From Streptomyces sp. AC555_RSS877 (GTDB taxonomy: Bacteria; Actinomycetota; Actinomycetes; Streptomycetales; Streptomycetaceae): DNA of 64,000 nucleotides. The notes under the pieces are model-generated. The model was not told the origin of the DNA. It did not search any database and saw only the letters and a program-made list of their open reading frames with translations. Position 1 is the stretch's first letter; each line of letters starts with the position of its first letter. The translations under genes and the position numbers were made by a program. Below, piece after piece: positions 26,673 to 41,889 of the stretch. The stretch spans positions 17,447 to 81,446 of the forward strand of contig NZ_JAGMUK010000077.1 in the NCBI RefSeq assembly GCF_019049245.1, written 5' to 3'.

Positions 26673-29600
26673 GTGAGGGAGGATCGCGTGGGTGGGGACG
26701 TTCATTTCGCCGTCTTGGGCTCCTTGGAAGTCAGGGTCGGCGACATCCGGCTGAAACTGGGCGGACCGGTTCCCAAGCGGATCCTGACCACGCTGCTGCT
26801 GGAACCGGGGCGCATGGTCCCCGTCTCCCGGCTGGTGGAGGCCGCCTGGGGCGAACAACCGCCGCGCACCGCCGCCCACCAGGTGCGCAAGGCGATCGCC
26901 GACCTGCGCCAGCGCATGCCGGACGGCGGCTCGCTGCTCGTCACCGAAGGTCCGGGGTACCGCCTGGACGTCGACCCCGCGAACCTGGACCTCAGCCAGT
27001 TCTCGCTCCGGCTGCGACAGGCGCGCGAGGCACAGGAGAACGGCCGTACGGCCGAGGCGGCGGGCAGGCTGCGGGCCGCGCTCGCGTTGTGGCGGGGCCC
27101 GGTCATGTCCGGCAGCGGAGGCTCGGTGATCGCCGCCGCCTCCGCCGTGCTGGAGGAGCGCCGGCTGGCCGCCGTCGAACAGCTCGTCGAGCTCAGGCTC
27201 GCACTCGGGGAGTCGGGGGAGCTCGTCGGGGATCTGCGCCAGCTCATCGCCGAGCACCCGCTGTGGGAGACCCTGCGGGGCCATCTCATGGTCGCGCTGT
27301 ACCGCTCGGGGCGGCAGGCCGAGGCCCTGGAGGAGTTCGGCCGGGTCCGCGACCTCCTCGTCGAGGAGCTCGGCATCGACCCCAGCCCGCAGCTGACCCG
27401 TCTGTACGAGGCGATCCTGCGCGACAGCCCCGAACTGGCCGCGGTGGCGCCGGGCGCCCTGGGGCAGGAGGAGACCGAGGCCGCCGCGCACCGGCCGGCG
27501 GCACCGCAGGGCATGGCGCCGTGCACGCTGCCGCACGACCTGATGGACTTCGCCGGCCGGGACCGCGAACTGCGCAGGCTGCTGGAGTCCGCGGAGCTGA
27601 CCGACGGCGGTACCGTCCGCATCGTCGCCATCGACGGCATGGGCGGCAGCGGCAAGACCTCCCTGGCCGTACGCGCCGCACACCGCCTCGCCGACCGCTA
27701 TCCGGACGGGCAGATCTACGTCGACCTGCGCGGTTTCACCCCCGGCGAGGAACCCCGCCGGCCGGCCGTCGTCATCGGCGCGCTGCTGCGCACCCTGGGC
27801 GTGCCGAGCGAGCGGATCCCCGACGACGTGGACGGCCGGGTCGCCCTGTGGCGGGCCACCCTCGCCAGGCGCAGGGTGCTGCTGGTCCTGGACAACGCCC
27901 TGGACGCCGCGCAGGTCCGGCCGCTGATACCCGCGTCGACGGGCTGCCTGGTCCTGGTCGCGAGCCGGAACCACATGGTCGGGCTGGACGGCGCCGACTG
28001 GCTGTCCATCGGGATGATGTCGCCGTCGGACAGCCTGGAGCTGATCAAACTGGCGCTCGGCGAGGACCGCGCGGCGGGCGAGCCGGAGGCCGTGGCGGAG
28101 CTGAGCGCGCTGTGCGGCCGGCTGCCGCTCGCCCTGCGCGTCGCCACCGCCCGGCTGCGCAGCCGGCCGCGCTGGACCGTGCGGCACCTCGTCGACCGGC
28201 TGGGCGACGAGGCCCGGCGGCTGGACGAGCTGAAGTCCGGTGACCACAGTGTCGAGGCGACGCTTCAGCTGTCGTACCAGGCACTGGACGACGAACGGCG
28301 CGACGCCTTCCGGCTGCTGGGCCTGCACCCGGGTACCGAGACCGACGCCCACTCGGCCGCGGCGCTGCTCGGCACCGGTGTGCGCGAGGCCGAGGAGGTG
28401 CTGGAACACCTCCTGGACATGCATCTGGTCGAGCAGTACGAGATCGGCCGGTACGCGTTCCACGACCTGGTGCGCAGCTTCGCCCGGCGGTTGCAGGGCC
28501 AGCGCCCCCAGGAGGAGCGGGCCGCCTTCGGGCGGCTGCTCGACTACTACCTGTCGGTGACCGAGAAAGCCTGCCGCACCCTCTATCCGGGACGGGCCCC
28601 GATCGGTGAGCGGTCCGGCGCCCCGGCGGCGGCCCAGCTGCCCGCGATCACCACCGCGGCCCAGGCGGAAGGGCTGTTCGACCGGGAACACGTCACGCTG
28701 CTCGCCGCCGTCGAGCGCGCGGAACAGGAGGAATTCCACCACCATGCCGTCCACCTGGCCCGGAACCTGATCTTCCATCTGAACTCGCGCAGCTATCTGG
28801 AGGAGTACCGGCGGGCCGCGGGCGTCGCGGTGTCCGCGGCCCGCAGGCTCGGCGCGCCCCGCACCCTGCGCCTGAGCCTGACGAACCTGGCGGCCGTGCT
28901 GTGGAAGCTCGGCCGGTTCCGGGAGGGGATCACGGCCGCCACGGAGGCTCTCGACGTCACCCGGCGTCTCGGTGACCGCGGCGGCGAGGCCGTCTGCCTC
29001 GACATGCTGGGGCTCCTGCACAGCTGCCTCGGCCATCTCGCGCAGGCCCGGCGCTACCTGGAGCAGGCCGTCGACCTGCACGAGGACCTGCCCGACGGCC
29101 GCCAGCGGGCCTACGCCTGGTGCAACCTGAGCTCGGTGTACGCCTGGTTCGGCCGGTACGAGGACGCGGCGGCGGCGGCCGAACGCGCGGTGTTCCTCTG
29201 CCAGGGCGCCGAGGCCCGCGGCGAGGAGATCATCGCCCTGACCGACCTGGCGACGGCCCGGCTGGGCACGGGGCAGCATGCCGCGGCCCTCGTCAGCCTG
29301 GAGCGGGCGCTGGAGCTGGGCGACGAGTCCCGGATGCCGGAGAACCTGGCCCTCACCTTCGCGCTCGCCGCGGAGGCGAGTGAACGGCTCGGCGCGGTGG
29401 AGCGGGCGACGGAGTACGCGGCCGAGGCGCTGCGGATGATCCAGTCCAAGGGAACCGCCACCCGGAACGCGACCGTGGAGAACCTTCTCGGGCGCTTCCA
29501 CCGCCGGCGTGGCGATCTCCCGTTGGCGCTGGAACTGCACGCGAGCGCGCACCGGCACGCGGTGACCGTCGAGTACCGCATAGAAATCGCCCACGCCCTG

Positions 29601-29723
29601 GACGGAATGGCGGAGGTCCTCAAGGGCATGGGCGAGTTCCAGGAGTCCGCGCTTCACCGGACGCGGGCACACGACCTTTTCCAGGGAATGGAGGTCCCTG
29701 TAAAGCGCTCGTCCACGGTCTGA
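26673..29723 (+). CDS. AfsR-type SARP transcriptional activator (SARP + NB-ARC + TPR)
   Basis: About 1016 aa. The N-terminal OmpR-like winged helix (FAVLGSLEVRVGDIRLKLGG, KRILTTLLLEPGRMVPVSRLVEAAWG) and bacterial activation domain (to about residue 255, RLYEAILRDSPE) form the SARP core. An NB-ARC ATPase follows, with Walker A GMGGSGKTSLAV (near residue 322) and VLLVLDNALDAAQVRPLIP. The last ~330 residues are tetratricopeptide repeats. The start is GTG 26673 after GGGGAGG; GTG 26688 with GGAGGA is an alternative. SARPs bind heptamer direct repeats 11 bp apart, and two such sites exist in the adjacent cluster. It is the likely pathway-specific activator, possibly autoregulated through the palindrome upstream. 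Confidence 0.93.
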   Translation: MREDRVGGDVHFAVLGSLEVRVGDIRLKLGGPVPKRILTTLLLEPGRMVPVSRLVEAAWGEQPPRTAAHQVRKAIADLRQRMPDGGSLLVTEGPGYRLDVDPANLDLSQFSLRLRQAREAQENGRTAEAAGRLRAALALWRGPVMSGSGGSVIAAASAVLEERRLAAVEQLVELRLALGESGELVGDLRQLIAEHPLWETLRGHLMVALYRSGRQAEALEEFGRVRDLLVEELGIDPSPQLTRLYEAILRDSPELAAVAPGALGQEETEAAAHRPAAPQGMAPCTLPHDLMDFAGRDRELRRLLESAELTDGGTVRIVAIDGMGGSGKTSLAVRAAHRLADRYPDGQIYVDLRGFTPGEEPRRPAVVIGALLRTLGVPSERIPDDVDGRVALWRATLARRRVLLVLDNALDAAQVRPLIPASTGCLVLVASRNHMVGLDGADWLSIGMMSPSDSLELIKLALGEDRAAGEPEAVAELSALCGRLPLALRVATARLRSRPRWTVRHLVDRLGDEARRLDELKSGDHSVEATLQLSYQALDDERRDAFRLLGLHPGTETDAHSAAALLGTGVREAEEVLEHLLDMHLVEQYEIGRYAFHDLVRSFARRLQGQRPQEERAAFGRLLDYYLSVTEKACRTLYPGRAPIGERSGAPAAAQLPAITTAAQAEGLFDREHVTLLAAVERAEQEEFHHHAVHLARNLIFHLNSRSYLEEYRRAAGVAVSAARRLGAPRTLRLSLTNLAAVLWKLGRFREGITAATEALDVTRRLGDRGGEAVCLDMLGLLHSCLGHLAQARRYLEQAVDLHEDLPDGRQRAYAWCNLSSVYAWFGRYEDAAAAAERAVFLCQGAEARGEEIIALTDLATARLGTGQHAAALVSLERALELGDESRMPENLALTFALAAEASERLGAVERATEYAAEALRMIQSKGTATRNATVENLLGRFHRRRGDLPLALELHASAHRHAVTVEYRIEIAHALDGMAEVLKGMGEFQESALHRTRAHDLFQGMEVPVKRSSTV

Positions 29724-29728
29724 CCCGG

Positions 29729-29875
29729 TCAGGAACCGGCGCTTCCGGGTCCGGTTCCGTTGTCCAGGACGCCCAGTTCGAATGCGGGGTGCGCGGCGGC
29801 CGGGGCGGCGGATCCGAACCCGACGGTGACGGCCAGCGCGAGAATTCCCACGACCGTGGCGAGCTTGCTGAGCAT
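29729..29875 (-). CDS. 48-aa putative secreted peptide of the biosynthetic cluster
   Basis: ATG 29875 follows AAGGTGG at a good distance. The peptide begins MLSKLATVVGILALAVTVGF and reaches AAPAAA, a signal-peptide-like N-terminus with an Ala-rich cleavage site. It ends with about 20 residues starting HPAFELGVLDNG and finishing GSAGS. No Cys, Ser/Thr clusters or known leader motif indicate a RiPP class. A GTG at 29938 would give 69 aa but places the SARP-like box only 8 bp before the start, so 29875 is preferred. It ends 5 bp from the convergent SARP gene and lies after the P450 gene on the same strand. Its role is unknown: precursor peptide, small secreted factor, or chance frame. Coregulation with the ligase operon argues it is real. 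Confidence 0.55.
   Translation of the reverse strand: MLSKLATVVGILALAVTVGFGSAAPAAAHPAFELGVLDNGTGPGSAGS
29732..29758. terminator. hairpin at the SARP/peptide convergent end
   Basis: GGAACCGG and CCGGTTCC pair over an 11-nt loop, overlapping the last codons of the peptide gene and lying just past the SARP stop. It may terminate the SARP transcript. Confidence 0.45.
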
Positions 29876-29946: not shown

Positions 29947-29968
29947 TTCCCGATCGATTCCCGGACCG
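29947..29968 (+). promoter_or_regulatory. SARP-type direct-repeat box before the peptide gene
   Basis: TTCCCGA-TCGA-TTCCCGG-ACCG: two heptamers 11 bp apart, 71 bp before ATG 29875 of the leftward peptide gene. Twenty of 22 bases match the box at 33836-33857 at the same relative position and orientation to the PLP gene. Probable binding site for the adjacent SARP. Confidence 0.7.
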
Positions 29969-30014
29969 GTACCGGGGAAAGGGCCGGTCCGGGGAAAGGA
30001 CCGGTACCGGGAAA
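29963..30014. repeat. three tandem ~18-bp copies between P450 and peptide genes
   Basis: Three successive copies of GGACCGGTACCGGGGAAA-like sequence (29963-29980, 29981-29997, 29998-30014), the middle one GGGCCGGTCCGGGGAAA. Each contains a palindromic ACCGGT or similar core. They overlap the downstream edge of the SARP-type box and may be part of the regulatory region or a repeat expansion. Confidence 0.6.
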
Positions 30015-30029: not shown

Positions 30030-31280
30030 TCATTCGGTTCGGCGCGGTGTCAGCCGCAGCGGGAGCGCGCGCAGGCCGTTCACCACGATGGAGTCCAGGT
30101 ACTCGGGTTCGCCGTCGACGGCCGCGTCGCCGACCTGGGCGAAGAACTCCCGCAGCACGGCCCGGATCTCCAGCTTCGCCAGCTGGGTGCCCACGCAGTA
30201 GTGCGGGCCGGCGCCCAGGGCGAGGTGCCGGTTGGGGCCGCGGCGGACGTCGAAGACGTCGGGGTCGGGGAAGTGCGCCGGGTCGCGGTTCGCGGACGTC
30301 AGCCAGCACACCACCAGCTCGCCCCGCCGGATCAGCCGCCCGCCCAGCTCCACGTCCCGGGTCGCCCGGCGCATGATGTGCGTGGCGCTCGACGTCCACC
30401 GCAGGATCTCGTCGATCGCGGTGTTCACCACGGTGTCGAAGTCGTCGCGCAGCAGCGCCCACTGCTCCGGGTGCTCCAGCAGCGCGAGCATCCCGCCGGA
30501 CATGGCGAGCCGGACGTTCTCGGTCCCGCCGACGAGCAGGTTGTCGCAGTTGAGGACGACCTCGTCGACGGGCAGGTGCTCGCCCTGGTGGGTCAGGCCG
30601 GCGAGAACGCTGACCAGGTCCTCGCCCGGCGTGGCCCGCCGCCGCTCCACCAGGTCGCCGAAGTAGTCGAGGATTTCCAGGTGGGCGATGCTGCGGTCCT
30701 CGGCGGTGCCGGCGCAGAACGCGTCCGTCGACCACTGGACGAGGGACGGCCGGTCCTCGTCGGGAACGCCCAGGAACGAGCAGACGACCTCGATCGGCAG
30801 CTTCGCGGCGACATCGCCGACGAAGTCGATCCGCGAGGCCGCGACGGCCGACCGGACGATCGAGTACGCCGCCGAGTCCAGGGAGTCCGACAGCCGCCGC
30901 AGGTTCCTGGGCGCGAACCAGCCCGCGACGGCGCCGCGCAGCAGCTGGTGACGCGGGGGGTCGGACAGGGCCAGGGTCCGGTTGCTGCCGGGGTCCTCGC
31001 CCTGGGCCAGCGGGCGCAGCAGGATGCCGGAGGAGGAGCTGAAGGTCTCGGCGTCCCGCAGCACCTCCTTCACCTCGTCGAACCGGGTGAGCGACCAGAA
31101 CGCGGGGAAGACGCCCGGCTCGTGGCGGACCACCGGCTCGTTCTCCCGCATCCAGCGCCACAGCCCGAACGGGTTGCCGTGCCGGTAGGTCTCCCCGTCG
31201 ACGAGCCGGCCGATGTCGTGGACGTCGTGGACGCCATGGACGGCATGGATGCCGTCGATCACGGTGCTTGTGTCGATCAC
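30030..31280 (-). CDS. cytochrome P450, probable carrier-bound amino acid beta-hydroxylase
   Basis: 416 aa. The haem Cys lies in LALGAGPHYCVGTQLAKLE, the ExxR in DEILRWTS. The I-helix reads LLVGGTENVRLA, so the usual Thr after Glu is Asn. GTG 31280 overlaps the thioesterase stop (GTGA). With the upstream adenylation-carrier and thioesterase genes it completes the set used in nikkomycin (NikP1/NikP2/NikQ) and, without thioesterase, novobiocin (NovH/NovI). In those pathways the P450 beta-hydroxylates the aminoacyl-S-carrier. The substrate is therefore probably a carrier-bound amino acid, histidine on adenylation-code grounds. The N-terminus is odd, with a His-Val repeat (GIHAVHGVHDVHDIG). Confidence 0.88.
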   Translation of the reverse strand: MIDTSTVIDGIHAVHGVHDVHDIGRLVDGETYRHGNPFGLWRWMRENEPVVRHEPGVFPAFWSLTRFDEVKEVLRDAETFSSSSGILLRPLAQGEDPGSNRTLALSDPPRHQLLRGAVAGWFAPRNLRRLSDSLDSAAYSIVRSAVAASRIDFVGDVAAKLPIEVVCSFLGVPDEDRPSLVQWSTDAFCAGTAEDRSIAHLEILDYFGDLVERRRATPGEDLVSVLAGLTHQGEHLPVDEVVLNCDNLLVGGTENVRLAMSGGMLALLEHPEQWALLRDDFDTVVNTAIDEILRWTSSATHIMRRATRDVELGGRLIRRGELVVCWLTSANRDPAHFPDPDVFDVRRGPNRHLALGAGPHYCVGTQLAKLEIRAVLREFFAQVGDAAVDGEPEYLDSIVVNGLRALPLRLTPRRTE

Positions 31281-32038
31281 AGTGCTTTCCCCCAGGAACG
31301 AGCGAGCTCGGCGGCGATCAGCCCGGTGGGCGGATCGTTGCGCAGGTAGAAGTGCCCGCCCGGCGTGACCACCGGGACGAACGCGCCTTCCGTGTGGTCC
31401 CGCCACTGCCCGGTGTGGGACCGGATCTCCGGGATGTCGTCCTCGCCGACCACGGCCACCAGCCGGGCGTCGATCCGCTTGCCGGCATGCTCCCGGTACC
31501 GGGCGACGAGACGCAGGTCGTCCTTGATGTAGTCGAGGATCAGTTCGAGCAGTTCCTCGTCCTGCCGGATCTCCGGGCTCACCGGCTCGTAGCGTTCGAG
31601 ATACCGCAGTACGTCCGCGGAGTCCTCGAAGGGGACGGGTGGCCGCAGTGCGGGCGCCGCTGCGGACGAGACCACCAGCGTCGGTACGCCTGCTCCGGCC
31701 TCGCGCAGACAGTGCGCGACCTCGAAGGCGACGTACGCGCCCATGCTGTGCCCGAACAGCACGGAGTACCGCTCGGAACCCGCGAGGATCTGACCGGCCA
31801 CGGCCTCGGCGAGGTCGCGCAGCCGGGCCGGCGACTCGTCCAGGACGCGGTCCTCCCGCCCCGGGTACTGCACGGCGTGCACCCGGGCCGCGGGCAGCAG
31901 CGACTGCCAGGACCGGAAGAACGACGCGCAGCCGCCGGCGTGCGGGAAACACAGCACGGCCGGGAGCGAGCCGTCGGCGGAGCCGAACCGTCGTATCGGG
32001 CCGAGGGAGGTGACCGACGGCAAGGAGTGCCCCCTCAC
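31277..32038 (-). CDS. type II-like thioesterase
   Basis: 253-aa alpha/beta hydrolase of the GrsT/TycF family. The nucleophile Ser is in FGHSMGAYVAFEVA, the Asp in VVGEDDIPEI and the His in TPGGHFYLRND. CFPHAGGCASFF is the family's N-terminal motif. GTG 32038 overlaps the stop of the adenylation-carrier gene and its stop overlaps the P450 start, so the three are translationally coupled. In the inferred scheme it releases the hydroxylated amino acid from the carrier domain (the NikP2 role); editing of mis-primed carrier is the alternative. Confidence 0.9.
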   Translation of the reverse strand: MRGHSLPSVTSLGPIRRFGSADGSLPAVLCFPHAGGCASFFRSWQSLLPAARVHAVQYPGREDRVLDESPARLRDLAEAVAGQILAGSERYSVLFGHSMGAYVAFEVAHCLREAGAGVPTLVVSSAAAPALRPPVPFEDSADVLRYLERYEPVSPEIRQDEELLELILDYIKDDLRLVARYREHAGKRIDARLVAVVGEDDIPEIRSHTGQWRDHTEGAFVPVVTPGGHFYLRNDPPTGLIAAELARSWGKAL

Positions 32039-33792
32039 GACCGGGTCAGCAGGTCCACCTGCTGGGGGATCGTGCCGCAGCGGTACACCTGCTTCACCCC
32101 GACGGGCCGCCCGACGATCTTCCCGAGGGCGCGAGACAGCTTGAGCACGGTCAGCGAGTTGCCGCCGAGATCGAAGAAGGTGCCGGTCTCGCCCTGCCGC
32201 ACCGGGACTCCGAGGATCTGCTCCCAGGCCTGCGCGACCTGATCGGCGAGGCCGTCCCCCGCGGTCGACTTCGGTACGGCGGTGCGCACCGAGGCCAGCA
32301 GCGCGGCCCGGTCGATCTTGTCGTGCGCGGAGCGCGGCAGGGTGTCGGCGAACAGGATCCGGTCGGGGACGACGGCGGCGCCGAGCGCCTCGGTGACGAA
32401 CCGGCGTACCGACGCCGCGTCGACCTCGGCGCCGGGCTCCTTGACGGCGAAGGCGTAGCAGACCGACGTCCCGGTGTCGTAGGCGACCGCGGCGGACTGG
32501 ACGCCGGGATGCGCGGCCAGCGCCTCCTCGATCGTCTCCAGGTGCACGCGCACCCCGCGGATCTTGACCTCGTTGTCGAGCCGCCCCACGAACTCCAGCC
32601 CGCCCCGGTCCGACCAGCGTCCGAGGTCGCCGGTGAGATAGACCCGTACGGTCCGCCCGGCCTCGGCCTCCACCTCGACGAACCTGGCCCTCGTCTCCGC
32701 CTCGTCGCCGACGTAACCCCGGGTCACGCCGACGCCGGAGACGGCGATCTGACCGACCTCGCCCGGCGGGACCTCACGCAGGTGGCCGTCGAGGAGGTGG
32801 ACGGCGGTGCCCGGTACCGGGAAGCCGATGGTGGGCTCGGCGGGCTTGTCGTAGACGCGGCAGGTGGACCAGACGGTGCACTCGGTCGGCCCGTACTCGT
32901 TGCCGAGGCTGACCGCGGGCAGCAGCGCGAAGTGCTGGTCGATGACACCACGGGTCAGCGACTCGCCCGCGCAGATCACCAGCCGCAGCGAGGCCAGGTC
33001 CCCGGCGAGCCGGTCGTCCTCCCGCACCGTGTGCAGGAGTTCGGTGTAGAAGCTCGGCACCGTCAGGGTGTGCGTCACGCCGTGCCGGGCGACCAGCCCG
33101 ACGAGCGCCCGCGGATTGCGCCGCTCGTCCTCCCCGGCCACGACGAGCGTGCCGCCGGCCGCCAGGGTGCCCCAGATCCCGGCCACCGACGAGTCGAAGT
33201 GGAACGGCGACAGCAGCAGGAACACTGGGGTGCCGAACCCGTCGTACACGGTGAGCCGCGCGGCGTTGGAGGCGGCCAGGTTGTCGTGGGAGACCGAGAC
33301 GCCCTTGGGCCTGCCGCTCGTGCCCGAGGTGTAGAGCACGTACGCCTCGTCCTCCGGTGCGGGGGCCGCGGCCGGCTCCGCGTCCGCACGGGGATACGTC
33401 ACCCGCTCCCCGGTCCGCGGATCGAGGACCACCGACACCCCCGACGAGGACCGGATGTGCCGGGCGACACCGTCCGGAGCCTCGGGGTTCAGGAACACGA
33501 AGGACCGGCCGGACAGCGAGACGCCCAGCGCGAGGGCGACCGTGGAGACCGTCCGGTGCGAGCGGATCCCGATCCGGCGGGAGCCGGCGTACCGGCCGTC
33601 CGTGCTCAGCTCCCGGGCCAGCGGCAAAGCCGCCGCGGCGAGTTCGCCGTACGAAAGGGTGTCGTCCCCGCAGATCACGGCGGGACGGTCGGGGTGCTGC
33701 CCCGCCCGCTCCATGACCGCGTCGCAGACGCGTGGTCCGGGAGGGGGCAGATGGAGCTCGTCGGGCATTCCGCGAAGCTGAAGTCTCGTCAT
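32035..33792 (-). CDS. NRPS adenylation-carrier (A-T) didomain
   Basis: 585 aa from ATG 33792. The adenylation domain (to about residue 500) has LYTSGTSGRPKGVSVSH (A3), GNEYGPTECTVW (A5), YLTGDLGRWSD (A7), RLDNEVKIRGVRVHLETIE (A8) and the catalytic Lys in RSAHDKIDR (A10). The carrier domain has the phosphopantetheine Ser in FFDLGGNSLTVLKL. There is no condensation domain and no MbtH. My reading of the specificity positions is D-S-A-T-I-A-E-V-W(-K). The D-S, A-E-V pattern with Glu at position 322 resembles the His code as I recall it for bacitracin synthetase, so histidine is the best guess. It heads the leftward arm from a 137-bp divergent promoter. Confidence 0.93.
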   Translation of the reverse strand: MTRLQLRGMPDELHLPPPGPRVCDAVMERAGQHPDRPAVICGDDTLSYGELAAAALPLARELSTDGRYAGSRRIGIRSHRTVSTVALALGVSLSGRSFVFLNPEAPDGVARHIRSSSGVSVVLDPRTGERVTYPRADAEPAAAPAPEDEAYVLYTSGTSGRPKGVSVSHDNLAASNAARLTVYDGFGTPVFLLLSPFHFDSSVAGIWGTLAAGGTLVVAGEDERRNPRALVGLVARHGVTHTLTVPSFYTELLHTVREDDRLAGDLASLRLVICAGESLTRGVIDQHFALLPAVSLGNEYGPTECTVWSTCRVYDKPAEPTIGFPVPGTAVHLLDGHLREVPPGEVGQIAVSGVGVTRGYVGDEAETRARFVEVEAEAGRTVRVYLTGDLGRWSDRGGLEFVGRLDNEVKIRGVRVHLETIEEALAAHPGVQSAAVAYDTGTSVCYAFAVKEPGAEVDAASVRRFVTEALGAAVVPDRILFADTLPRSAHDKIDRAALLASVRTAVPKSTAGDGLADQVAQAWEQILGVPVRQGETGTFFDLGGNSLTVLKLSRALGKIVGRPVGVKQVYRCGTIPQQVDLLTRS

Positions 33793-33929
33793 GGACGAAG
33801 ATCCTCCGCACCTCATTCCGGAAATCTTCCCGGCACGGTCCGGGAACGGATCGGGAATGCCCCGGGATCCCGTCCTCCTACCTTTCGACTGTCGACGACC
33901 GGCATTCGCAGTCATGGGAAAGGGACGCG
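33793..33929. promoter_or_regulatory. divergent promoter region of the biosynthetic cluster, with SARP-type box
   Basis: 137 bp between the A-T gene and the PLP operon. On the minus strand 33857-33836 reads TTCCCGA-TCCG-TTCCCGG-ACCG, matching the box before the peptide gene at 20 of 22 bases. It ends 72 bp before GTG 33930. Further TTCCGGAA and CCCGGG palindromes lie around it. It probably drives both arms under the SARP. Confidence 0.75.
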
Positions 33930-34970
33930 GTGTACTCCTCATTCGCCGAGAAACTGTCAGAACCGGATCTCATAGACCTGGGCAACGGGATCTACGTGGT
34001 CCGCTTCGAGGTCATGAAGGTCACCTCCGTCCGGGCCGCGGTCAAGGACCTGCTCGACCGCAAGGTCATCCGCCCGGGCCAGACGCTGGTCGACAGCTCC
34101 AGCGGCATCTACGGCCACGCCCTCGCGCTGGTCTGCCGCGAACTGGGCCTGAAGTGTCACATCTTCGCCTCCGTGGCGGTCGACGCGGCCATCAGAACCC
34201 AGCTCAAGTACCTGGGGGCGACCTACACCCAGGTCCCGTCCTCCGGCGACGACGGCCTCCAGCACGACCAGGAGACCCGGGTCCGGCTCGTCCACGCCTA
34301 CATGAAGGACAACCCGGACGCGTACTGGATGCAGCAGTACCACGACGACGTGCACTACATCGGCTACGAGAGCGTCGCGAACACCGTGGTCAAGGAGCTC
34401 GGTTCGGCCGGGGTCACCCTGGTGGGAGGGGTCGGCACGGGCGCGTCGACCAGCGCGATGGGCCGCTACCTGCGGGAGGCCGGCTGCGACGCGCGGGTGG
34501 TCGGCATCCAGCCCTTCGGCAGCCGCTCGTTCGGCTCGGAGACCATCCCGCTCGACGGGTTCATCATCGCCGGCATCGGCAGCGGCATCCGGTTCGGCAA
34601 CATCGACTACCGCGCCTACGACGACATCCACTGGATCAACTTCGACGTCTCCGCCGCCGGCTGCCGCCGGCTGCTGGCCACCACGGGCGTCTTCGCCGGC
34701 CTCTCCGCCGGCGCGGGCTGGCAGGTCGCCAACCACATCCGCGCGACCGAACCCGACAGCGGCCCCGTCGTGTTCCTGGCCGCCGACCCGGGACACCGCT
34801 ACGTCGACCGCGTCTTCCCGCCCGACGGCCCCGTCGAGGACGACCCCGCGTACCGCCCCGAGATCATCACCGATCTCGCCGACATGACCGGCCCCTGGTG
34901 CGCCATGAACTGGGCCCGCCGCCCGTACGACGTCCAGGACGACCTGCCCGTCTTCGCGCTGCAGACCTGA
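33930..34970 (+). CDS. cysteine-synthase-like PLP enzyme (fold type II), atypical
   Basis: 346 aa from GTG 33930 (AAAGGGA upstream). The fold is that of cysteine synthase/cystathionine beta-synthase: LVDSSSGIYGHALALVCRELG replaces the usual SSGNxG substrate loop, LVGGVGTGASTSAMGRYLRE is the phosphate-binding GTGxT-type loop, and FAGLSAGAG closes the site. The normal NPTGSVKDR motif with the PLP Lys reads RFEVMKVTSVRAAVKDLL here. A simple alignment puts Arg at the Lys position, leaving Lys in EVMK or AVKD as candidates. In peptide pathways such enzymes make beta-substituted alanines, including 2,3-diaminopropionate. Reaction unknown; first gene of the rightward arm. Confidence 0.8.
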   Translation: MYSSFAEKLSEPDLIDLGNGIYVVRFEVMKVTSVRAAVKDLLDRKVIRPGQTLVDSSSGIYGHALALVCRELGLKCHIFASVAVDAAIRTQLKYLGATYTQVPSSGDDGLQHDQETRVRLVHAYMKDNPDAYWMQQYHDDVHYIGYESVANTVVKELGSAGVTLVGGVGTGASTSAMGRYLREAGCDARVVGIQPFGSRSFGSETIPLDGFIIAGIGSGIRFGNIDYRAYDDIHWINFDVSAAGCRRLLATTGVFAGLSAGAGWQVANHIRATEPDSGPVVFLAADPGHRYVDRVFPPDGPVEDDPAYRPEIITDLADMTGPWCAMNWARRPYDVQDDLPVFALQT

Positions 34971-35001: not shown

Positions 35002-36219
35002 ATGACCCGTGTCGCCGTCATCAACTACGGCCCGAAGAGCGACTACGCCGCCATGCTGCCGGAACTGGCGGACACCCTCCACGTGTTCACCCACAACGAG
35101 CTGCACAACACCGACGCCTTCGCCCGCTACGAACACGTACCCGACTGCGAATTCGTCCCCTACCCGGAACTGCGGATCAGGCAGCTCGCCGCGGAGAAAC
35201 CGTTCACCCACCTCATCACGGACAACGAGTACGACCTGGAACGGGTCGCCCGCATCCGCGAGGACCTCGGCATTCCCGGCCAGTCCGCGGCGAGCGCGCT
35301 GTCCTTCCGCGACAAGGTCGTGATGAAGGAGGTCGCGAGCCGTACCGTCCCGACGGCCGCCTTCGCCCGGCTGGAGACGATCACCGACCTCACCGGCTTC
35401 ATCGCGGCCCACGCGTACCCGGTCGTGGTCAAGCCGGTGAAGCAGGGCGGCTCCCGCGACATCTCGGTGCTGCGCGGCGAGGACGACCTGATGGAGTTCA
35501 GCCGCCGGCACTGGCGCGAGGACCTGATGGTCGAGGACTTCGTCGAGGGACGGATGTACCACGTCGACGCGGTGCTGGCCCCCGGCTACCGGTTCGTCGC
35601 CTCCTCCCGCTATGTGCGCAGCTGCCTCGGCGTCTTCTCCGGCGAGAACAACGGCTCGATCCAGCTGCACCCCGAGGAGAAGTTCGCCGGACGCCTGGAG
35701 GAGTTCCTCGACCGCGTCCTGGAGGCGTTCGAGGTCCCCGAGATCAGCGCCTACCACCTGGAGGTGTTCCACACCCCCGAGGACGAACTGGTGCTGTGCG
35801 AGATCGCCTCCCGTGTCGGCGGCGACCGCATCCCCGCCCTCACCCGCCTCACCTACGGCGTGGACCTGCACGCCAGCTGGCTGCGCCAGTCCTGCGGCCT
35901 GCCCGTCGACCCGCCCCCGGCCGCTCCGCCCGCCGAGGTGCACGGCTCGATCTCGATCCTGCCGCAGGGCCGCCCCGTACGCGCGCCGCGCCGGCCCCCG
36001 TTCGCGTGGGTGCGGCACTACGAGGTCAACGAGAAGCTGGCCCCCGGTGCCGTCGCGCAGAACAGCACCTCGTTCCTCTGCTTCGTCATCGTCGGCGGCC
36101 GTGATCTCGCCGAGGTCGAGGAGCGGCTGCTCCAGGCGGAGACCTGGCTGATGGAGAACCTGGAAGAAGCGGACGCCGCAAAAGATGCGGAAGCCGCGGA
36201 AGAAGCCCGCGCGTCATGA
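35002..36219 (+). CDS. ATP-grasp ligase 1
   Basis: 405 aa. A Rossmann-like N-terminal domain (VAVINYGPKSDYAAML; LRIRQLAAEKPFTHLITDNEYD) precedes a classical ATP-grasp fold. PVVVKPVKQGGSRDISVL is the ATP-binding loop, MVEDFVEGRMYHVDAVL a phosphate/Mg strand, and VLCEIASRVGGDR the Mg ligand motif. It resembles carboxylate-amine ligases such as BacD, so it may form an amide between two amino acids. Substrates cannot be read from sequence. The last ~25 residues are Ala/Glu-rich. Its stop overlaps the transporter start (ATGA). Confidence 0.85.
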   Translation: MTRVAVINYGPKSDYAAMLPELADTLHVFTHNELHNTDAFARYEHVPDCEFVPYPELRIRQLAAEKPFTHLITDNEYDLERVARIREDLGIPGQSAASALSFRDKVVMKEVASRTVPTAAFARLETITDLTGFIAAHAYPVVVKPVKQGGSRDISVLRGEDDLMEFSRRHWREDLMVEDFVEGRMYHVDAVLAPGYRFVASSRYVRSCLGVFSGENNGSIQLHPEEKFAGRLEEFLDRVLEAFEVPEISAYHLEVFHTPEDELVLCEIASRVGGDRIPALTRLTYGVDLHASWLRQSCGLPVDPPPAAPPAEVHGSISILPQGRPVRAPRRPPFAWVRHYEVNEKLAPGAVAQNSTSFLCFVIVGGRDLAEVEERLLQAETWLMENLEEADAAKDAEAAEEARAS

Positions 36220-37427
36220 AGACCTGGCGCCGGACGTCGGCGAACGGGCGGGCGCTGCTGGTGGCCGTGCTCGTCACCGGCCTCACGACGTTCATGTTCC
36301 TGCCGCTGCTGGCCATCCACTTCACCGCCGAGGGCCTTCCGGCGGGGCGGGTCGGCTTCCTCGTGGGCCTGCTCGCCTTCTGCAGCCAGGGTTTCTCCCT
36401 CGTGTGCGGGCTGATCGTGGACCGGCTGGGCACCCGCGTGGTGCTGACCAGCGGGTTCGCGCTGCGAATCGTCGGCTATCTGCTGCTCGCGCTCGGCGAC
36501 GGCGGCCGGATGGTGCCGCTGGTCGCCGGTATCGCGGCCATCGGTGTCGGCGGCTCCCTGCTGGGGCTGTCCATCAAGACGCTGCTGGTGCGGGAGGACA
36601 GTGTCCAGCCGCGCGAGATGCTGGCGCTGCGCTCGACCTTCGTGAACATCGGCGTGGTCGCCGGACCGGCGCTCGGCGCGGTGGTCTACCCGCTCGGTTT
36701 CTCCTACATCCTCGCCGCCTGCGTGCTGTCGCACCTGCTCCTCGGCATACGGCTGACGCTCCGCCCGGCGGCGCGGGCGCTCCCCGGGCCGCCGGCCGCC
36801 ACCGAGGCGGCGAAGAACGGCCCGGCGGCCGGCGGCCCGCCTGATGACGGCCCGCCGCGGTGGGAGCGCTGGCGGTGGGTGCCGCTGTGCCTGGTCGGCG
36901 CCGCGTTCTGGGCCATCTACAGCCAGCTCAACGTGCTGCTGCCCATCACCGCCAGGGAACTGACCGGGAGCACCGAGGCGATCTCGGTCGTCTTCACCCT
37001 CAACGGAGTGCTGTGCGTGCTGTTCCAGTACACGCTGCTGCACCACGTGTTCGGCAAGGCCGCCACCCGCACCCTGCTCGTCGTCGGCTTCGTCGCGTTC
37101 GCCTGCGCCTACGCCGTGTTCATCCCGCTCGCCGGCTGGTACTCCCTGCTCGCCTTCGTCCTGCCGGTCACCGTCGCCGAGATGCTGATCGCCCCGAGCC
37201 TCGACGAGCAGGCCGTCAAGGTCAGCTCCGTCCGCCGCACCGGACTCGCCCTCGGCACCATGAGCGCCGCCGGTGCCGTCGGCAGCCTCCTCGGATCCAG
37301 CATGGGCGGCTACCTCCTCCAGACACTGCACGGCGGCACGGGCGTCTGGCTGGTGCTCGTCCTCTTCTCCCTCGCCGCCGCAGCCACCTCATTCCTCCTA
37401 CCGAAGGTGCACACGCAGCATGCCTGA
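36216..37427 (+). CDS. MFS transporter, probable product exporter
   Basis: 403 aa with about twelve hydrophobic segments in two halves and a Pro/Gly/Ala-rich central loop (residues about 185-215). VDRLGTRVVL after helix 2 is the MFS loop 2-3 motif. It lies within the ligase operon, overlapping the genes on both sides, so export of the finished compound (self-protection) is the likely role. Uptake of a precursor is possible. Specificity unknown. Confidence 0.88.
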   Translation: MKTWRRTSANGRALLVAVLVTGLTTFMFLPLLAIHFTAEGLPAGRVGFLVGLLAFCSQGFSLVCGLIVDRLGTRVVLTSGFALRIVGYLLLALGDGGRMVPLVAGIAAIGVGGSLLGLSIKTLLVREDSVQPREMLALRSTFVNIGVVAGPALGAVVYPLGFSYILAACVLSHLLLGIRLTLRPAARALPGPPAATEAAKNGPAAGGPPDDGPPRWERWRWVPLCLVGAAFWAIYSQLNVLLPITARELTGSTEAISVVFTLNGVLCVLFQYTLLHHVFGKAATRTLLVVGFVAFACAYAVFIPLAGWYSLLAFVLPVTVAEMLIAPSLDEQAVKVSSVRRTGLALGTMSAAGAVGSLLGSSMGGYLLQTLHGGTGVWLVLVLFSLAAAATSFLLPKVHTQHA

Positions 37428-38598
37428 CACCCGGCCGACAGCCGTCCTGCTCAACCCCCGCGATCTGGTCGTCACCGCCGCCCAGAAACTCGGCTTCTCG
37501 GTGATCGTCGTCGGCGACCCGGAGGCACCGCTGCCCGGCAACGCCCCCGAGCCGGTCCTCCGCAGCCCGTGGATCACCGACGTAGACCAGCTCGTCGAGC
37601 AACTGCGCGCCCTCGACCTGCCCGCGCCCGTCAGCTGCTTCGGCTTCGGAGAGCTGGGCTGTGCGACCTCGGCGGTGGTCAACGAGCGCCTGGGCTGGCC
37701 CGGGAACCCGCCCGAGGCACTCGCCGCGTTCAAGGACAAGGCGAGGCTGCGGGCCGAGGTCGGCGATCGCGCCGGCGCCCCGGTCGCGCACGTGACCTGC
37801 GCGACCGAGGAGGAGCTGCGCCCCGCCGTCGAGCGGATCGGCTTCCCCTGTGTGGTCAAGCCGGTGGACGGCACCGGGAGTTCGGGTGTGCGGTACCTGG
37901 CGGACCGGGAGGAGACGGAGCGGTACCTCGCCGCCCTGAGCTTCGACACCCCGCACATCGTGGAGGAGTTCCTGGTCGGCGCCGAGTACAGCGTGGAGGC
38001 GGTCAGCTCCTTGGAGGGGCACCGCATCCTGGCGATCACGGAGAAGACCACCACCGGCGCCCCGCACTTCGTCGAGACCGGCCACACCCTGCCGGTGAGG
38101 CTCGATCCCGCGTCCGAGGCCGCGATCACCGACCTCGTCACCGGGATGCTGGACGCGATCGGCTACCGCTACGGCCCCTCGCACACCGAGGTCATGCTCA
38201 CCGAGGCCGGCCCGCGCCTCATCGAGTCCCACGGCCGCCCCGGCGGCGACCGGATCAGCGATCTGCTGGTCCTCGCCCTCGGCGAGGACGTGTTCGCGCA
38301 GATGATGACCGCCGTCTTCGGCCTGCCGACACCCGCCGCGGCCACCCGGAAGCAGGTCGCCGGCATCCGCTACGTCACCTACGACCGCACGGTCCCGATG
38401 CCGGGCATCAGCACCGAACTCGTCGCCTCGCTGCCGGGCGTCGCCGAGACGGCCATCACCGTCGCGGCCGGCGAGCAGCCGCCGGAGGTCCGCAGGTCGG
38501 CCGACCGGCACGGCTTCGTCGTCGCCACCGGCAACACCCGCGACGAGCTCGAGACCAACCTGGCCCGCGCGGTGCGCACGCTCACCGCGAAGGCCTGA
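37420..38598 (+). CDS. ATP-grasp ligase 2 (BacD/L-amino acid ligase-like)
   Basis: 392 aa from ATG 37420, overlapping the transporter gene by 8 bp. The N-terminal PreATP-grasp domain is followed by FPCVVKPVDGTGSSGVRYL (ATP loop), IVEEFLVGAEYSVEAV, HTEVMLTEAGPRLIESHGRPGGD (Mg ligands) and a C-terminal dimer-like domain. This arrangement is close to L-amino acid alpha-ligases (BacD, RizA type) that make dipeptides with ATP. Together with the other ATP-grasp genes it suggests stepwise peptide assembly. Order of use and substrates are unknown. Confidence 0.87.
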   Translation: MPDTRPTAVLLNPRDLVVTAAQKLGFSVIVVGDPEAPLPGNAPEPVLRSPWITDVDQLVEQLRALDLPAPVSCFGFGELGCATSAVVNERLGWPGNPPEALAAFKDKARLRAEVGDRAGAPVAHVTCATEEELRPAVERIGFPCVVKPVDGTGSSGVRYLADREETERYLAALSFDTPHIVEEFLVGAEYSVEAVSSLEGHRILAITEKTTTGAPHFVETGHTLPVRLDPASEAAITDLVTGMLDAIGYRYGPSHTEVMLTEAGPRLIESHGRPGGDRISDLLVLALGEDVFAQMMTAVFGLPTPAAATRKQVAGIRYVTYDRTVPMPGISTELVASLPGVAETAITVAAGEQPPEVRRSADRHGFVVATGNTRDELETNLARAVRTLTAKA

Positions 38599-38644: not shown

Positions 38645-39652
38645 GTGCCGTACAAGATCCTCGTCCTCGTCTCCGAGGCGTCCAAGTTCGAACTCGACAA
38701 CCACTCGATCATTCCCAGTGCCCTGTACCGCGAGGGTCACGAGGTGCACATCGGTGACATCGACACGCTGAGCGTGCACGACGCCGTCGTCGTCTGCGAC
38801 CGCATGAAGGTGACCGACGAGTTCACCTCCGGCGGCGACTTCCCGTCGCTGAGCGAGTCCTACGCCTCCGCGGAGGAGTTCGACCTGGTGTGGGTGCTCG
38901 CGGGCACCCACCCGGAGGCGGGCAACGACTCCTTCCAGCTGCTGTGGCTGCTCAACCAGCGGGTGCCGTTCGTCAACGACGCGTCCGCGCTGTTCTACCT
39001 GAACACCAAGACCAACCTGGTCGCCATCGTGCCGGGCGAGCACCTGCCGAAGTCGTACGTGACGAACGACTTCGACTTCCTGAACGACCTGGTCGAGTCC
39101 GACCCCGACCGTTCCTGGGTGGTCAAGCCGACCAACGACGGCTGCGGCGCGGACGTGTTCGTCGTCAACAAGTACGACCGCAACCGTTCGGCACTGCTGG
39201 GCTCGGCCACCGGCAACGCGATGTCGCGCTACGGGCGGTACGGCCGCGACATCATCGGCATGGCCAAGCGGCACACCGCCGTCCAGGAGTACATCCCCAA
39301 CGTCCGCGACAACGAGAAGCGCGTGATCATCGCCGGTGGTGAACCGGTCTCCGGCTTCCTCCGCTTCCACCCCGAGCACGACAACCGCTCGAACGCCACC
39401 CTCGGCGCCCGCTTCGAGAAGCTGGAACTGACCGCGGAGGAGGACGAGTTCGTCCGCGCCCTCGGCAAGCGGCTGATGGACCTCGGCATCTTCTACTCGG
39501 GCATCGACCTGGCGTACCCCTATGTCATCGAGGTCAACATGGTGAACCCGGGCGGCCTGAGCTACCACCAGCTCGCGACCGGTGAGGACAAGTCGTCGGA
39601 TGCGGTCAACACCGTGCTGGAGGCGCTGCGCACCGCCGGGAAGCTGACGTGA
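38645..39652 (+). CDS. ATP-grasp ligase 3 (glutathione synthetase GshB/RimK-like)
   Basis: 335 aa from GTG 38645. The start KILVLVSEASKFELDNHSII is a GshB-like N-terminal domain. SWVVKPTNDGCGADVFVV is the ATP loop, VQEYIPNVRDNEKRVIIAGG and IDLAYPYVIEVNMVNPGG are the paired Mg-binding strands (compare the E-x-N of GshB). It differs from ligases 1 and 2 and is the best candidate for adding a residue to an existing dipeptide or short peptide. Streptomycetes make mycothiol rather than glutathione, so housekeeping glutathione synthesis is unlikely. It ends in GTGA overlap with the next gene. Confidence 0.85.
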   Translation: MPYKILVLVSEASKFELDNHSIIPSALYREGHEVHIGDIDTLSVHDAVVVCDRMKVTDEFTSGGDFPSLSESYASAEEFDLVWVLAGTHPEAGNDSFQLLWLLNQRVPFVNDASALFYLNTKTNLVAIVPGEHLPKSYVTNDFDFLNDLVESDPDRSWVVKPTNDGCGADVFVVNKYDRNRSALLGSATGNAMSRYGRYGRDIIGMAKRHTAVQEYIPNVRDNEKRVIIAGGEPVSGFLRFHPEHDNRSNATLGARFEKLELTAEEDEFVRALGKRLMDLGIFYSGIDLAYPYVIEVNMVNPGGLSYHQLATGEDKSSDAVNTVLEALRTAGKLT

Positions 39653-40998
39653 GCGCCTGGTCCTGGGCCGACCCGCGGGCCCTGACGGCGTGGGACGACT
39701 TCGCGGCCGGGCAGGAGGCCGGCCCCGACCGGGAGCGGTTCGAGAAGGCGCTGTGGCGGCCAGGCTGGGGAACCGCCTACCCGCCGCAGGTGTTCACCGC
39801 CGACGCCGCGTCCGAGACGGCGACGGCCGGTGTGCGCCTCGCCGAGCTGATCTCCGCCTTCCCTCGGCGGGTCTTCGGGGAGGACCTCGACGCGTGGGTC
39901 GACTACCTGGGGGTTCCGGCCGAGGACGCCGCCCTCATGGGCGAGGCGCTGCGGCAGCCGCGGCTGCGGCGCGTCGCCACCGCCTTCATGCGCCCGGACC
40001 TGGTGCTGACCGACGACGGCCTGAAGCTGGTCGAACTGAACGTAGCCACCTCGCTGGGCGGGCTCAGCACGCTCGCCCCGTACACCGCCGCCACCCGGGA
40101 GTCGGCGTACGCGGCCTTCCTGGCGGAGCGCGGGCTCGCCGTGGAGGCCCCGGACACGGCGGCGATCTGGCTGGAGGTCTTCGCGGGGCTGACCCGGGCG
40201 CGCGGGGAGGGGCCGTTGCGGGTGTTCGAGGCGACCGCCGACCCGGCCGACCTGGACGGCGGCCGCCGGTTCTTCGTCGACATGATCCGCTCCGCCGGCC
40301 ACCACATCAGCTGCGGGCTCATCGGCGACCTGGAGCTCACCGACACCGGCGTTCGGTTCGAGGGCGAGCCGGTGGACGCCGTCTTCACCGCGTACACCTG
40401 GCACGAGACCAAGGAGTTCGTGCCGCCCGCGCTCACCCGCAGGCTCATGGAACTCGACGCCGCCGGACTGGTGGACTTCATCGGGTCGCCCGCCGCCGCC
40501 CTCCACGACAACAAGGGCAACCTGGCGCTGCTCCACGACGAGGCGTTCGACGGCCTGCTGAGCGAGGACGAGCGGTCCCTGGTCCGCCGGTACGTGCCGG
40601 TGACGTTCCGCCTGCGTCCGGAGAGCCTCGACCGGGCGGTCGCCGAGCGGGAGTCGCTGATCTGCAAGCCGGCCTCCGCCTACGGCGGCAAGGACCTGGT
40701 GTTCGGCTCCGGCACGGGCGACGACGAGTGGCGCGCCCTGCTGCGGGACCGGCTGGCCGACGCCGACGAGCGGTACGTCCTCCAGGCGCGCCAGTACCCG
40801 GCCGTGGTCTCGGTGCCCGGCTCCCGGCCCACCCCCGAGCGCGAAGTCGTCCTGGCACCCCTGGTCTTCGGCGGCACCTTCGCCGGAGTGTTCCTGCGCC
40901 AGGCGACACCCCGGCCCCAGTCGACGATCAACGCGTCCAGCGGCGCCGAGGTCGCGGCGGTGCTGACCCTCCGCGACCAGAGCACGTCCGACACCTGA
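39649..40998 (+). CDS. ATP-grasp protein 4 (glutathionylspermidine-synthase/circularly permuted type)
   Basis: 449 aa from GTG 39649. RPDLVLTDDGLKLVELNVATSLGG, a long middle region with EPVDAVFTAYTWHE, then LICKPASAYGGKDLVFG and YVLQARQYPAVVSV, ending with VLAPLVFGGTFAGVFLR. The Glu-x-Asn before the Lys-Pro...Gly-Gly-Lys loop is the permuted order seen in glutathionylspermidine synthase-like and type 2 ATP-grasp proteins. It is a fourth possible amide-forming enzyme in one operon and may attach an amine or a terminal amino acid. Function unproven. Confidence 0.7.
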   Translation: MSAWSWADPRALTAWDDFAAGQEAGPDRERFEKALWRPGWGTAYPPQVFTADAASETATAGVRLAELISAFPRRVFGEDLDAWVDYLGVPAEDAALMGEALRQPRLRRVATAFMRPDLVLTDDGLKLVELNVATSLGGLSTLAPYTAATRESAYAAFLAERGLAVEAPDTAAIWLEVFAGLTRARGEGPLRVFEATADPADLDGGRRFFVDMIRSAGHHISCGLIGDLELTDTGVRFEGEPVDAVFTAYTWHETKEFVPPALTRRLMELDAAGLVDFIGSPAAALHDNKGNLALLHDEAFDGLLSEDERSLVRRYVPVTFRLRPESLDRAVAERESLICKPASAYGGKDLVFGSGTGDDEWRALLRDRLADADERYVLQARQYPAVVSVPGSRPTPEREVVLAPLVFGGTFAGVFLRQATPRPQSTINASSGAEVAAVLTLRDQSTSDT

Positions 40999-41031
40999 CG
41001 TATGGGAATCCGAGGCGAAGGAAGCCGACGC

Positions 41032-41889
41032 ATGCTGCGCATAGCCGTGCCCAACAAGGGCTCGTTGTCCGGACCCACCATGGAGATGCTGCGTGAGGCG
41101 GGGTACCGGCAGCGCGAGGACAGCAAACAGCTCGCCCTCGTCGACCCGGTCAACGAGGTGGAGTTCTTCTACCTCCGCCCGCGCGACATCGCCGTGTACG
41201 TCTCCGCCGGCCGCCTGGACCTCGGCATCACCGGCCGTGACCTGCTCGTCGACTCCGCCGCGGGCGCCGAGGAGATCCTGTCGCTGGGCTTCGCCCGCTC
41301 CACGTTCCGCTTCGCCGCCCGGCCCGGCACGGCGCGGGGCGTCGAGGACTTCGACGGCATGACGATCGCCACCTCGTACGAGGGCGTCGTCGCCAAGCAC
41401 CTGGCGCAGGCCGGTGTCGTCGCCTCGGTCGTGCACCTCGACGGTGCCGTGGAGAACGCCATCGAGCTGGGCGTCGCCCAGGTCGTCGCCGACGTGGTGG
41501 AGACCGGGGCGAGTCTGCGCAACGTGGGCCTGGAGGTCATCGGCGAGCCGATCATGAGCTCGGAGGCGATCGTCGTCCGCCGCGCGGGTGCCGACGCGTC
41601 CGGCGACGACGCCACCACGGCCCGGCGCTTCCTGCGCCGTCTCCAGGGGGTTCTCGTCGCCCGCTCCTACGTGATGATGGACTACCACTGCCCGGCCGAG
41701 CACCTGGAACGGGCCATCGCCCTCACGCCCGGCCTGGAGTCCCCGACCATCTCCCCGCTGCACACCAGGGGCCGCGTCGCCGTCCGCGCGATGGTCCCCG
41801 CCGACCGCGCCCAGCAGATCATGGACGACCTGTACGCGGCGGGCGCCCGGGCCATCCTGACCGCCTCGATCCACGCCTGCCGCCTCTGA
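41032..41889 (+). CDS. hisG: ATP phosphoribosyltransferase HisG (cluster copy)
   Basis: 285 aa, long form. Condenses ATP and PRPP, the first and feedback-controlled step of histidine synthesis. It starts MLRIAVPNKGSLSGPTMEML and has DLGITGRDLLVDS, GMTIATSYEGVVAKHL, DGAVENAIELGVAQVVADVVETG (PRPP loop region) and a C-terminal regulatory ACT-like domain ending ARAILTASIHACRL. Start ATG 41032 follows GAAGGAAG; ATG 41002 in frame would add ten residues. In streptomycetes the housekeeping hisG lies elsewhere, beside hisE, so this is presumably an extra copy at the end of the ligase operon. It would raise histidine supply or be a resistant form of the enzyme. Confidence 0.93.
   Translation: MLRIAVPNKGSLSGPTMEMLREAGYRQREDSKQLALVDPVNEVEFFYLRPRDIAVYVSAGRLDLGITGRDLLVDSAAGAEEILSLGFARSTFRFAARPGTARGVEDFDGMTIATSYEGVVAKHLAQAGVVASVVHLDGAVENAIELGVAQVVADVVETGASLRNVGLEVIGEPIMSSEAIVVRRAGADASGDDATTARRFLRRLQGVLVARSYVMMDYHCPAEHLERAIALTPGLESPTISPLHTRGRVAVRAMVPADRAQQIMDDLYAAGARAILTASIHACRL

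Follow-up and report, generated by a model that had tools for sequence, protein, structure and literature searches.

A SARP-linked Streptomyces gene cluster proposed to build a short beta-hydroxyhistidine peptide with ATP-grasp ligases

Gene content of the cluster and its relatives

The subject of this work is a biosynthetic gene cluster at positions 26715-41889 of a 64,000-nucleotide stretch of Streptomyces sp. AC555_RSS877 (contig positions 17447-81446, in a genome of 10.36 Mb), the whole of which is here called the window. An earlier note, made from the sequence alone, had listed at this place a SARP regulator, an adenylation-thiolation (A-T) protein with a thioesterase and a cytochrome P450, a cysteine-synthase-like enzyme of the PALP family, a major facilitator superfamily (MFS) exporter, a HisG and four ATP-grasp proteins. 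Gene calls and protein family scans (Pfam and NCBIfam; 20 proteins between 22008 and 49340) bear out this gene set.

The first gene of the cluster, on the plus strand, encodes a SARP of AfsR-type architecture (26715-29723; DNA-binding, BTAD, NB-ARC and TPR parts by Pfam), which reaches 581 bits against the AfsR equivalog, with a cut-off of 1430, and is thus not AfsR itself. On the minus strand follow the genes for the P450 (30030-31280), a type II thioesterase (31277-32038) and the A-T didomain (32035-33792, start corrected to 33792), which are adjacent, overlap by 4 bp and are referred to below as the trio. Divergently from them, the gene of the PALP enzyme (33930-34970, start corrected to the GTG at 33930) opens a series of plus-strand genes with intergenic gaps of -8 to 46 bp, encoding the ATP-grasp ligase AG1 (g23; 35002-36219), the MFS exporter (36216-37427, by Pfam), an ATP-grasp L-amino acid ligase (LAL; g25, 37420-38598), a GshB-like ATP-grasp ligase (g26; 38645-39652), a fourth ATP-grasp protein (g27; 39649-40998) and the HisG paralogue, an ATP phosphoribosyltransferase (41032-41889). 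As the earlier note had remarked, no condensation domain was matched in any of the 20 scanned proteins, which leaves the ATP-grasp ligases as the sole visible formers of peptide bonds. There were no nucleoside genes among the scanned proteins and no sign of phosphonate genes in the family scans of the cluster region.

Related clusters were collected by a scan of 84,980 species genomes, which was seeded by two short peptide patterns, so that divergent relatives may be missed, and which gave 14 loci; G134 and G343 came from further searches, of Streptomyces genomes. With duplicates counted once (L033 = G071 = L039; L043 = L096 = G258; L095 = G343), with L046-L048 (27-28% identical) serving as tree outgroups only and L044 and L045 as outside contexts only, twelve clusters remained after merging: the window, G134, L033, L035, L036, L037, L038, L040, L041, L042, L043 and L095. 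A core of PALP, AG1, MFS, LAL and GshB-like genes is present in all twelve, and since it recurs in 11 other genomes the grouping is not due to chance. Two of the twelve are from Amycolatopsis, where the PALP gene and the remaining core lie on opposite strands. Outside the core, g27 is found in nine clusters (absent from L041, L042 and L043), HisG in seven (absent from L035, L041, L042, L043 and L095), a SARP homologue in six of the fetched stretches (the five trio clusters and L037, with only a piece at the stretch end in L095) and the trio in five (the window, L035, L036, L043 and L095). In the closest relative, L035, synteny ends at the SARP and at g27, and HisG is absent. The interpretation of the region as one cluster held for the gene set, but the trio and HisG did not prove to be integral parts of it: absent from 7/12 and 5/12 clusters, respectively, they are optional and were added to an older core. 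The cluster is rare, as only 5 of 392 sampled Streptomyces genomes carry a close PALP. When the class was searched with the GshB-like protein, two of 394 genomes gave matches at E <= 1e-40, the window's own and a lone piece in G374 (39-40% identity), near which no other gene of the cluster was found.

The trio, the ligases and the PLP enzyme

By Pfam, the A-T protein consists of AMP-binding, AMP-binding_C and PP-binding domains alone. Motif reading of its adenylation (A) domain, at what we take to be the code positions, gives DSATIAEVWK, and DSATVAEVWK was read in the A-T proteins of L035, L036 and L043 (the fifth, of L095, being left out). By the same reading, on the same presumed positions, the window code equals DSALIAEVWK, which we assume to be the code of NikP1 itself, in nine of ten letters, with T for L. 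DSALIAEVWK is reported as the code for histidine and beta-hydroxyhistidine (PMC12283262). The GHSMG motif of the thioesterase is kept in all four aligned sequences.

In nikkomycin biosynthesis, the A-T protein NikP1 and the type II thioesterase NikP2 are described as making and freeing beta-hydroxyhistidine (PMC4147253), and the P450 NikQ as requiring carrier-bound histidine and not accepting the free amino acid (PMC10099666). NikP1 is further described with an N-terminal MbtH-like part (PMC6668435), which Pfam did not find in the window A-T protein; because of this difference the trio is said here to work, probably, like that of nikkomycin, and identity with NikP1 is not claimed. The adjacent set of three genes and the histidine-type code agree with the nikkomycin-like trio proposed at the outset, and since the code is one residue off the published one, beta-hydroxyhistidine, guessed at in the earlier note, is a reasonable prediction. 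Relatives of the P450 were also considered as a test of its substrate and decide nothing, as the best outside one (G014) has a different setting and lies at the edge of a contig. A 2-hydroxyacid dehydrogenase gene was seen between the SARP and P450 genes in only two, mutually related, of the five trio clusters (L036, 5013-5945; L095, 15748-16680).

The four ATP-grasp proteins are recognised with different ease. AG1 matches an L-amino acid ligase of solved structure (4wd3, E 9e-14), with Pfam ATP-grasp scores just under the cut-offs, LAL contains ATP-grasp_4 and LAL_C2 domains, and the GshB-like protein matches GSH-S_ATP and the glutathione synthetase of E. coli. For g27 there was no Pfam or NCBIfam match at E <= 0.001 and no credible sequence match in the PDB. 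The AlphaFold2 model of this protein has modest confidence (mean pLDDT 60, pTM 0.64) and matches glutathione and glutathionylspermidine synthetases by Foldseek (E 6e-15); by VIA-align, and with the same modest model confidence, it matches YgiC (7uk8; Z 24.0, 335 residues, 4.0 A) and glutathionylspermidine synthetase (Z about 22), eukaryotic glutathione synthetases being matched also. These matches rule out an unrelated fold, and g27 is predicted to be a circularly permuted ATP-grasp enzyme of the glutathionylspermidine synthetase type. The count of four ATP-grasp proteins stands, the fourth being recognised solely by its predicted fold. A KP...G stretch is present in all four proteins. The absence of condensation domains and these matches and folds also argue for the view that bonds would be formed by ATP-grasp ligases rather than by non-ribosomal peptide synthetase (NRPS) modules; the ligases of the cluster would then form the amide bonds of the product.

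The PALP protein is a putative pyridoxal phosphate (PLP) enzyme, and its nearest named relatives in the PDB and NCBIfam are SbnA and CmnB. It reaches 131 bits against the SbnA equivalog TIGR03945, far under the cut-off of 349.95, and no gene of the SbnB type (PF02423) was found among the scanned proteins, two being present elsewhere in the genome. The NPxGS loop before the catalytic lysine is missing and SSSGIY replaces TSGNTG. Loss of the catalytic lysine, with arginine in its place, was considered and is ruled out by the family alignment, in which K30 stands, after a 6-residue deletion, at the position of the lysine of SxKDR in CBS-like relatives. Therefore, the enzyme is cysteine-synthase-like and atypical, as had been suggested, with the lysine kept at the catalytic position. 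The cluster copies form one clade (support 1.000).

Second-tier relatives of this PALP are present in about 112 of the 392 Streptomyces genomes (E 1e-90 to 1e-112). The outside loci that were opened comprised 13 of these, the more distant L109, and two from other genera, L044 and L045. In 11 loci (L099-L104, L106-L108, L110 and L045) the PALP gene has DUF364, MFS or importer genes beside it, the importers being mostly of the Fec type. Pfam confirms FecCD and Peripla_BP_2 in L045 and L099 and DUF364 in L044, L045 and L099, and BLAST family served to assign the remainder; the ABC importer of L110 is a different one. A Zur-like box with 0-1 mismatch was found in nine of the 11, at two mismatches in L107 and not in L106. 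No Zur box was found in the ten cluster loci scanned (all except G134 and L033), nor in the window at <= 2 mismatches. In another five loci (L044, L097, L098, L105 and L109) the PALP gene is accompanied by genes for a GHMP-type kinase and an ATP-grasp LAL (Pfam identifies the kinase in L044, L097 and L109 and the LAL in L044; the other assignments are from BLAST). A phosphorylated serine would suit this context as substrate, and the five loci may encode small-peptide pathways that have a kinase of their own. The PALP/DUF364 operon with Zur-like boxes resembles a pathway for a metal (zinc) chelator that is as yet uncharacterised. Since the PALPs of L097 and L098 are as close to that of the cluster (50% identical) as that of L099 (51%), either context may be the ancestral one, and recruitment of the enzyme from a small-chelator pathway is no more than a lead.

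The GshB-like ligase, the promoter repeat and the extra HisG

The core proteins were compared according to the presence of the trio, a fixed difference being a column with one residue in all five trio-bearing clusters and another in those without it. The GshB-like ligase has fixed differences in 27 of 332 columns, compared to 0 of 337 in PALP, 4 of 378 in AG1, 1 of 365 in LAL and 0 of 118 in MFS, where the partial tblastn pieces of L041 and L043 leave few columns (27/332 vs. 5/1198 for these four together; Fisher 3e-14, with columns treated as independent). For g27 the count was 16 of 437, in nine clusters that do not include Amycolatopsis (four with the trio, five without). As a control, Amycolatopsis was compared with the Streptomyces clusters without the trio, and there the GshB-like ligase was the least divergent of the core proteins (7.8% vs. 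8.8-14.5% for the four others). Its identity is 80-99% within the trio-bearing clusters and 83-99% within those without the trio, even though the latter span two genera, but 70-74% between the two groups. Among the trees, which cover GshB-like, AG1, PALP and LAL, that of the GshB-like ligase separates the two groups by a single branch with support of 100/100.

Five of the fixed differences (239, 243, 249, 251 and 255) fall in a stretch aligned to E. coli residues 220-241 in the alignment with 1gsa, and two (306 and 308) lie just beyond the end of that alignment; we take these sites to be substrate loops in GshB. The split fits a ligase whose substrate changes upon hydroxylation of histidine, so the comparison of the related clusters suggests that the GshB-like ligase handles the histidine unit.

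The divergent promoter between the A-T and PALP genes contains a triple direct repeat, CGGGAA-n5-CGGGAA-n5-CGGKA, with an 11-bp period (33841-33867, plus strand). Since the pattern was written to fit the promoters of the window, L035, L036, L043, L095 and L037, its presence in them is by construction; the independent part of the evidence is the single match in the genome and the absence from the other clusters. At <= 1 mismatch the site is unique in the whole genome, with none for the reversed-pattern control, and at <= 2 mismatches the window has three matches, two of them overlapping, vs. 0.06 expected; the weaker match (two mismatches, 29948-29974) lies between the convergent ends of the SARP and P450 genes. 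Exact matches were found in nine of 141 loci, which are the six SARP-bearing clusters and their duplicates, always at the promoter equivalent to that of A-T/PALP. The other six clusters, whose fetched stretches show no SARP, gave no exact match, although one of them, L040, keeps a related imperfect repeat. The repeat is proposed as the operator of the SARP, and it lends support to the SARP control supposed by the earlier note.

The HisG of the cluster matches PF01634 (catalytic) and PF08029 (C-terminal, histidine-binding), both over cut-off. A second hisG gene, 75% identical, lies on contig C219 and rules out the window gene as the housekeeping copy, so the HisG noticed in the cluster is an extra one. 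Ten cluster-bearing genomes were compared: two HisG copies occur in each of the six whose cluster includes the gene, and a single copy in each of the other four and likewise in G343. Among the 392 Streptomyces genomes, a second HisG-like match (E <= 1e-60) was detected in three of five with the cluster vs. two of 387 others (Fisher 1e-5), the latter being split pieces in G318 and, in G073, a copy near an unrelated SARP gene. This G073 copy is an extra HisG in another locus (L141, 9115-9960; 53% identical), which raises the possibility that secondary metabolism has taken up HisG on several occasions.

The window HisG has histidine in place of D218 (M. tuberculosis numbering; 215 in C. glutamicum by the offset of neighbouring contact residues), which is kept in the six other cluster copies and in 11 housekeeping copies. 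Mutational work is reported to confirm position 215 as a histidine contact, and N215K is one of the changes in a triple mutant that resists feedback (PMC3896937). Extra histidine supply is the simplest reading of the additional gene and, for the window copy, rests on one changed contact.

Three further loci were seen elsewhere in the window: a desferrioxamine-type siderophore (IucA/IucC) locus at 8297-15651, with DmdR/IdeR-like iron boxes at 13429 and 15651; arginase-family and thiamine pyrophosphate-enzyme genes near a PucR regulator at 46681-49340, probably catabolic and unmatched in those loci of the relatives that were compared with the genes of the window; and, at 56536-63357, a polymorphic-toxin-like gene, whose RHS-repeat product of 2273 aa combines a pretoxin HINT domain with a deaminase domain at the C-terminus.

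Proposed pathway and its alternatives

From the observed gene content, ATP-grasp folds, histidine-type code, conservation, split of the GshB-like ligase with the trio and promoter repeat, we infer all the substrates, the order of ligation, the chemistry of the PLP enzyme and the product's structure and activity. The product may be antibiotic or herbicide-like, as the earlier note guessed, the evidence speaking neither for nor against this. The explanation that we favour, with some reservation, is a SARP-switched cluster for a short exported peptide containing beta-hydroxyhistidine. The extra HisG would raise the supply of histidine; the A-T protein would load L-histidine, the P450 hydroxylate the carrier-bound form and the thioesterase free beta-hydroxyhistidine, as in nikkomycin biosynthesis. 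The SbnA-like PLP enzyme would supply a beta-substituted alanine, the likely reaction being a beta-replacement between O-phosphoserine and an amine, and the free-standing ATP-grasp ligases would join the amino acids, the GshB-like one taking the (hydroxy)histidine unit, before export of the product by the MFS protein. Where the trio is missing, the product would be a version with plain histidine.

Several observations weigh against this explanation. The A-domain code, as obtained by motif reading, differs from the published histidine code at one of ten positions, the A-T protein differs from NikP1 in its N-terminal part, and the best outside relative of the P450 (G014) is found in a locus of FMN-dehydrogenase/aminotransferase and glyoxalase type and not in a histidine setting. 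HisG and g27, missing from five and three of the twelve clusters, respectively, are not essential. Behind the split of the GshB-like ligase there are about three independent trio-bearing lineages, and gene replacement along with the trio could give the same pattern. The AG1 tree also splits by trio presence (support 97/96), and in the PALP and LAL trees the trio-bearing clusters are not on one side of a branch, a single group not being rejected there (approximately unbiased test, p 0.51 and 0.20).

Some of these points could be taken to mean that the trio hydroxylates an amino acid other than histidine. The T for L in the code and the different setting of the closest outside relative of the P450 are in favour of this, but nine of ten letters equal the published code and an extra HisG accompanies seven of the twelve clusters, though only two of the five with the trio, so we regard another substrate as unlikely. 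The trio and the operon could even be two neighbouring pathways with separate products, given that they are divergent transcripts and that seven clusters have the operon without the trio. Against such a separation, the trio occupies the same place beside the PALP gene in all five trio clusters, the two share a promoter region with a conserved repeat, and residues of the GshB-like ligase are fixed differently according to the trio, all of which makes it very improbable. The cluster HisG has also been considered as a self-resistance copy, which would replace or titrate the target of a product that inhibits histidine biosynthesis. Its presence in seven clusters and the D218 to H change at a histidine-contact position would agree with that role, but five clusters, three of them with the trio, have no extra HisG, D218 and the checked contact positions are unchanged in the six other cluster copies, and a supply role takes fewer assumptions; self-resistance is therefore quite unlikely, slightly more so than a different substrate of the trio.

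A product that is mainly a secreted metal chelator, made with a PLP enzyme from a metal-uptake family and binding metal through histidine or beta-hydroxyhistidine, is conceivable although doubtful. In its favour are the 11 outside PALP loci with importer, DUF364 or MFS genes, nine of them with a Zur-like box at 0-1 mismatch, and beta-hydroxyhistidine is listed among the chelating groups of peptide metallophores (PMC12971057). However, neither a Zur nor a DmdR box is present in the window cluster, the ten cluster loci scanned have no Zur box, no metal importer was detected by Pfam in the window cluster, and a SARP-type operator is found instead. In addition, the metallophore histidine hydroxylases named in that paper are Fe(II)/alpha-ketoglutarate enzymes and not P450s (PMC12971057), and the Zur-like box of L105 precedes a different ABC gene set, while L097, L098 and L044, which also hold outside relatives of the PALP enzyme, have none.

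Compared with known systems, the cluster shares with nikkomycin (NikP1, NikP2 and NikQ) the set of A-T protein, type II thioesterase and P450 and a putative histidine-type code, with nine of ten letters equal, but has no MbtH-like part, carries ATP-grasp ligases, a PLP enzyme and HisG alongside the trio and shows no nucleoside genes among the scanned proteins. SbnA and CmnB, which are diaminopropionate synthases, are the best named relatives of the PALP enzyme, from which it differs in its score far under the SbnA cut-off, in the missing NPxGS loop and in the lack of an SbnB-type gene in the cluster. The family of g26 is that of GshB and the predicted fold of g27 that of glutathionylspermidine synthetase and YgiC, although both have low sequence identity to these enzymes and are placed in a biosynthetic operon. 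Feldamycin, which we take to be a histidine-derived Streptomyces antibiotic, was considered as the product and is unsupported, as the literature passages on it give neither genes nor structure. Phosphonoalamides are, like the proposed product, short Streptomyces peptides built by free-standing ATP-grasp ligases, there two (PnaB and PnaC) and with a phosphonate headgroup (PMC11867202), here four ATP-grasp proteins of three kinds. Corramycin also contains a residue of the beta-hydroxyhistidine type, but is made by a hybrid line of NRPS and polyketide synthase, in whose cluster its authors report having found no P450 (PMC10099666). The same cluster was not found in the openly accessible full-text literature, the check for known clusters covering open papers and the genome collections used, in keeping with the first impression that the combination is unlike any known product cluster. 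The cluster combines known parts in a new way, namely a nikkomycin-type trio and peptide assembly by ATP-grasp enzymes, with an unusual PLP subfamily at the centre, and is not something categorically new.

A wider version of the proposal can be put forward only tentatively and is doubtful. The clusters would represent an undescribed family of ATP-grasp-built histidine peptides with two interchangeable chemotypes, histidine and beta-hydroxyhistidine, in which the trio and a matching GshB-like allele are exchanged together, the PLP enzyme stems from a Zur-controlled chelator pathway, the product binds metal and the cluster has its own feedback-relaxed HisG. This version is weakened by the fact that a Zur-like box (0-1 mismatch) precedes the PALP operon in only eight of the 13 second-tier Streptomyces loci.

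If the proposal of a beta-hydroxyhistidine peptide is true, the cluster would provide a compact, SARP-switchable route to such peptides without an NRPS assembly line, which would be of clear interest to natural-product chemists. A natural experiment is at hand: some clusters carry the hydroxylating module, others lack it, and one ligase tracks its presence, so ligase specificity is testable by a single-gene swap. Also, the PALP/DUF364 operon with Zur-like boxes in Streptomyces, as a possible zinc-chelator pathway, is worth a separate study.

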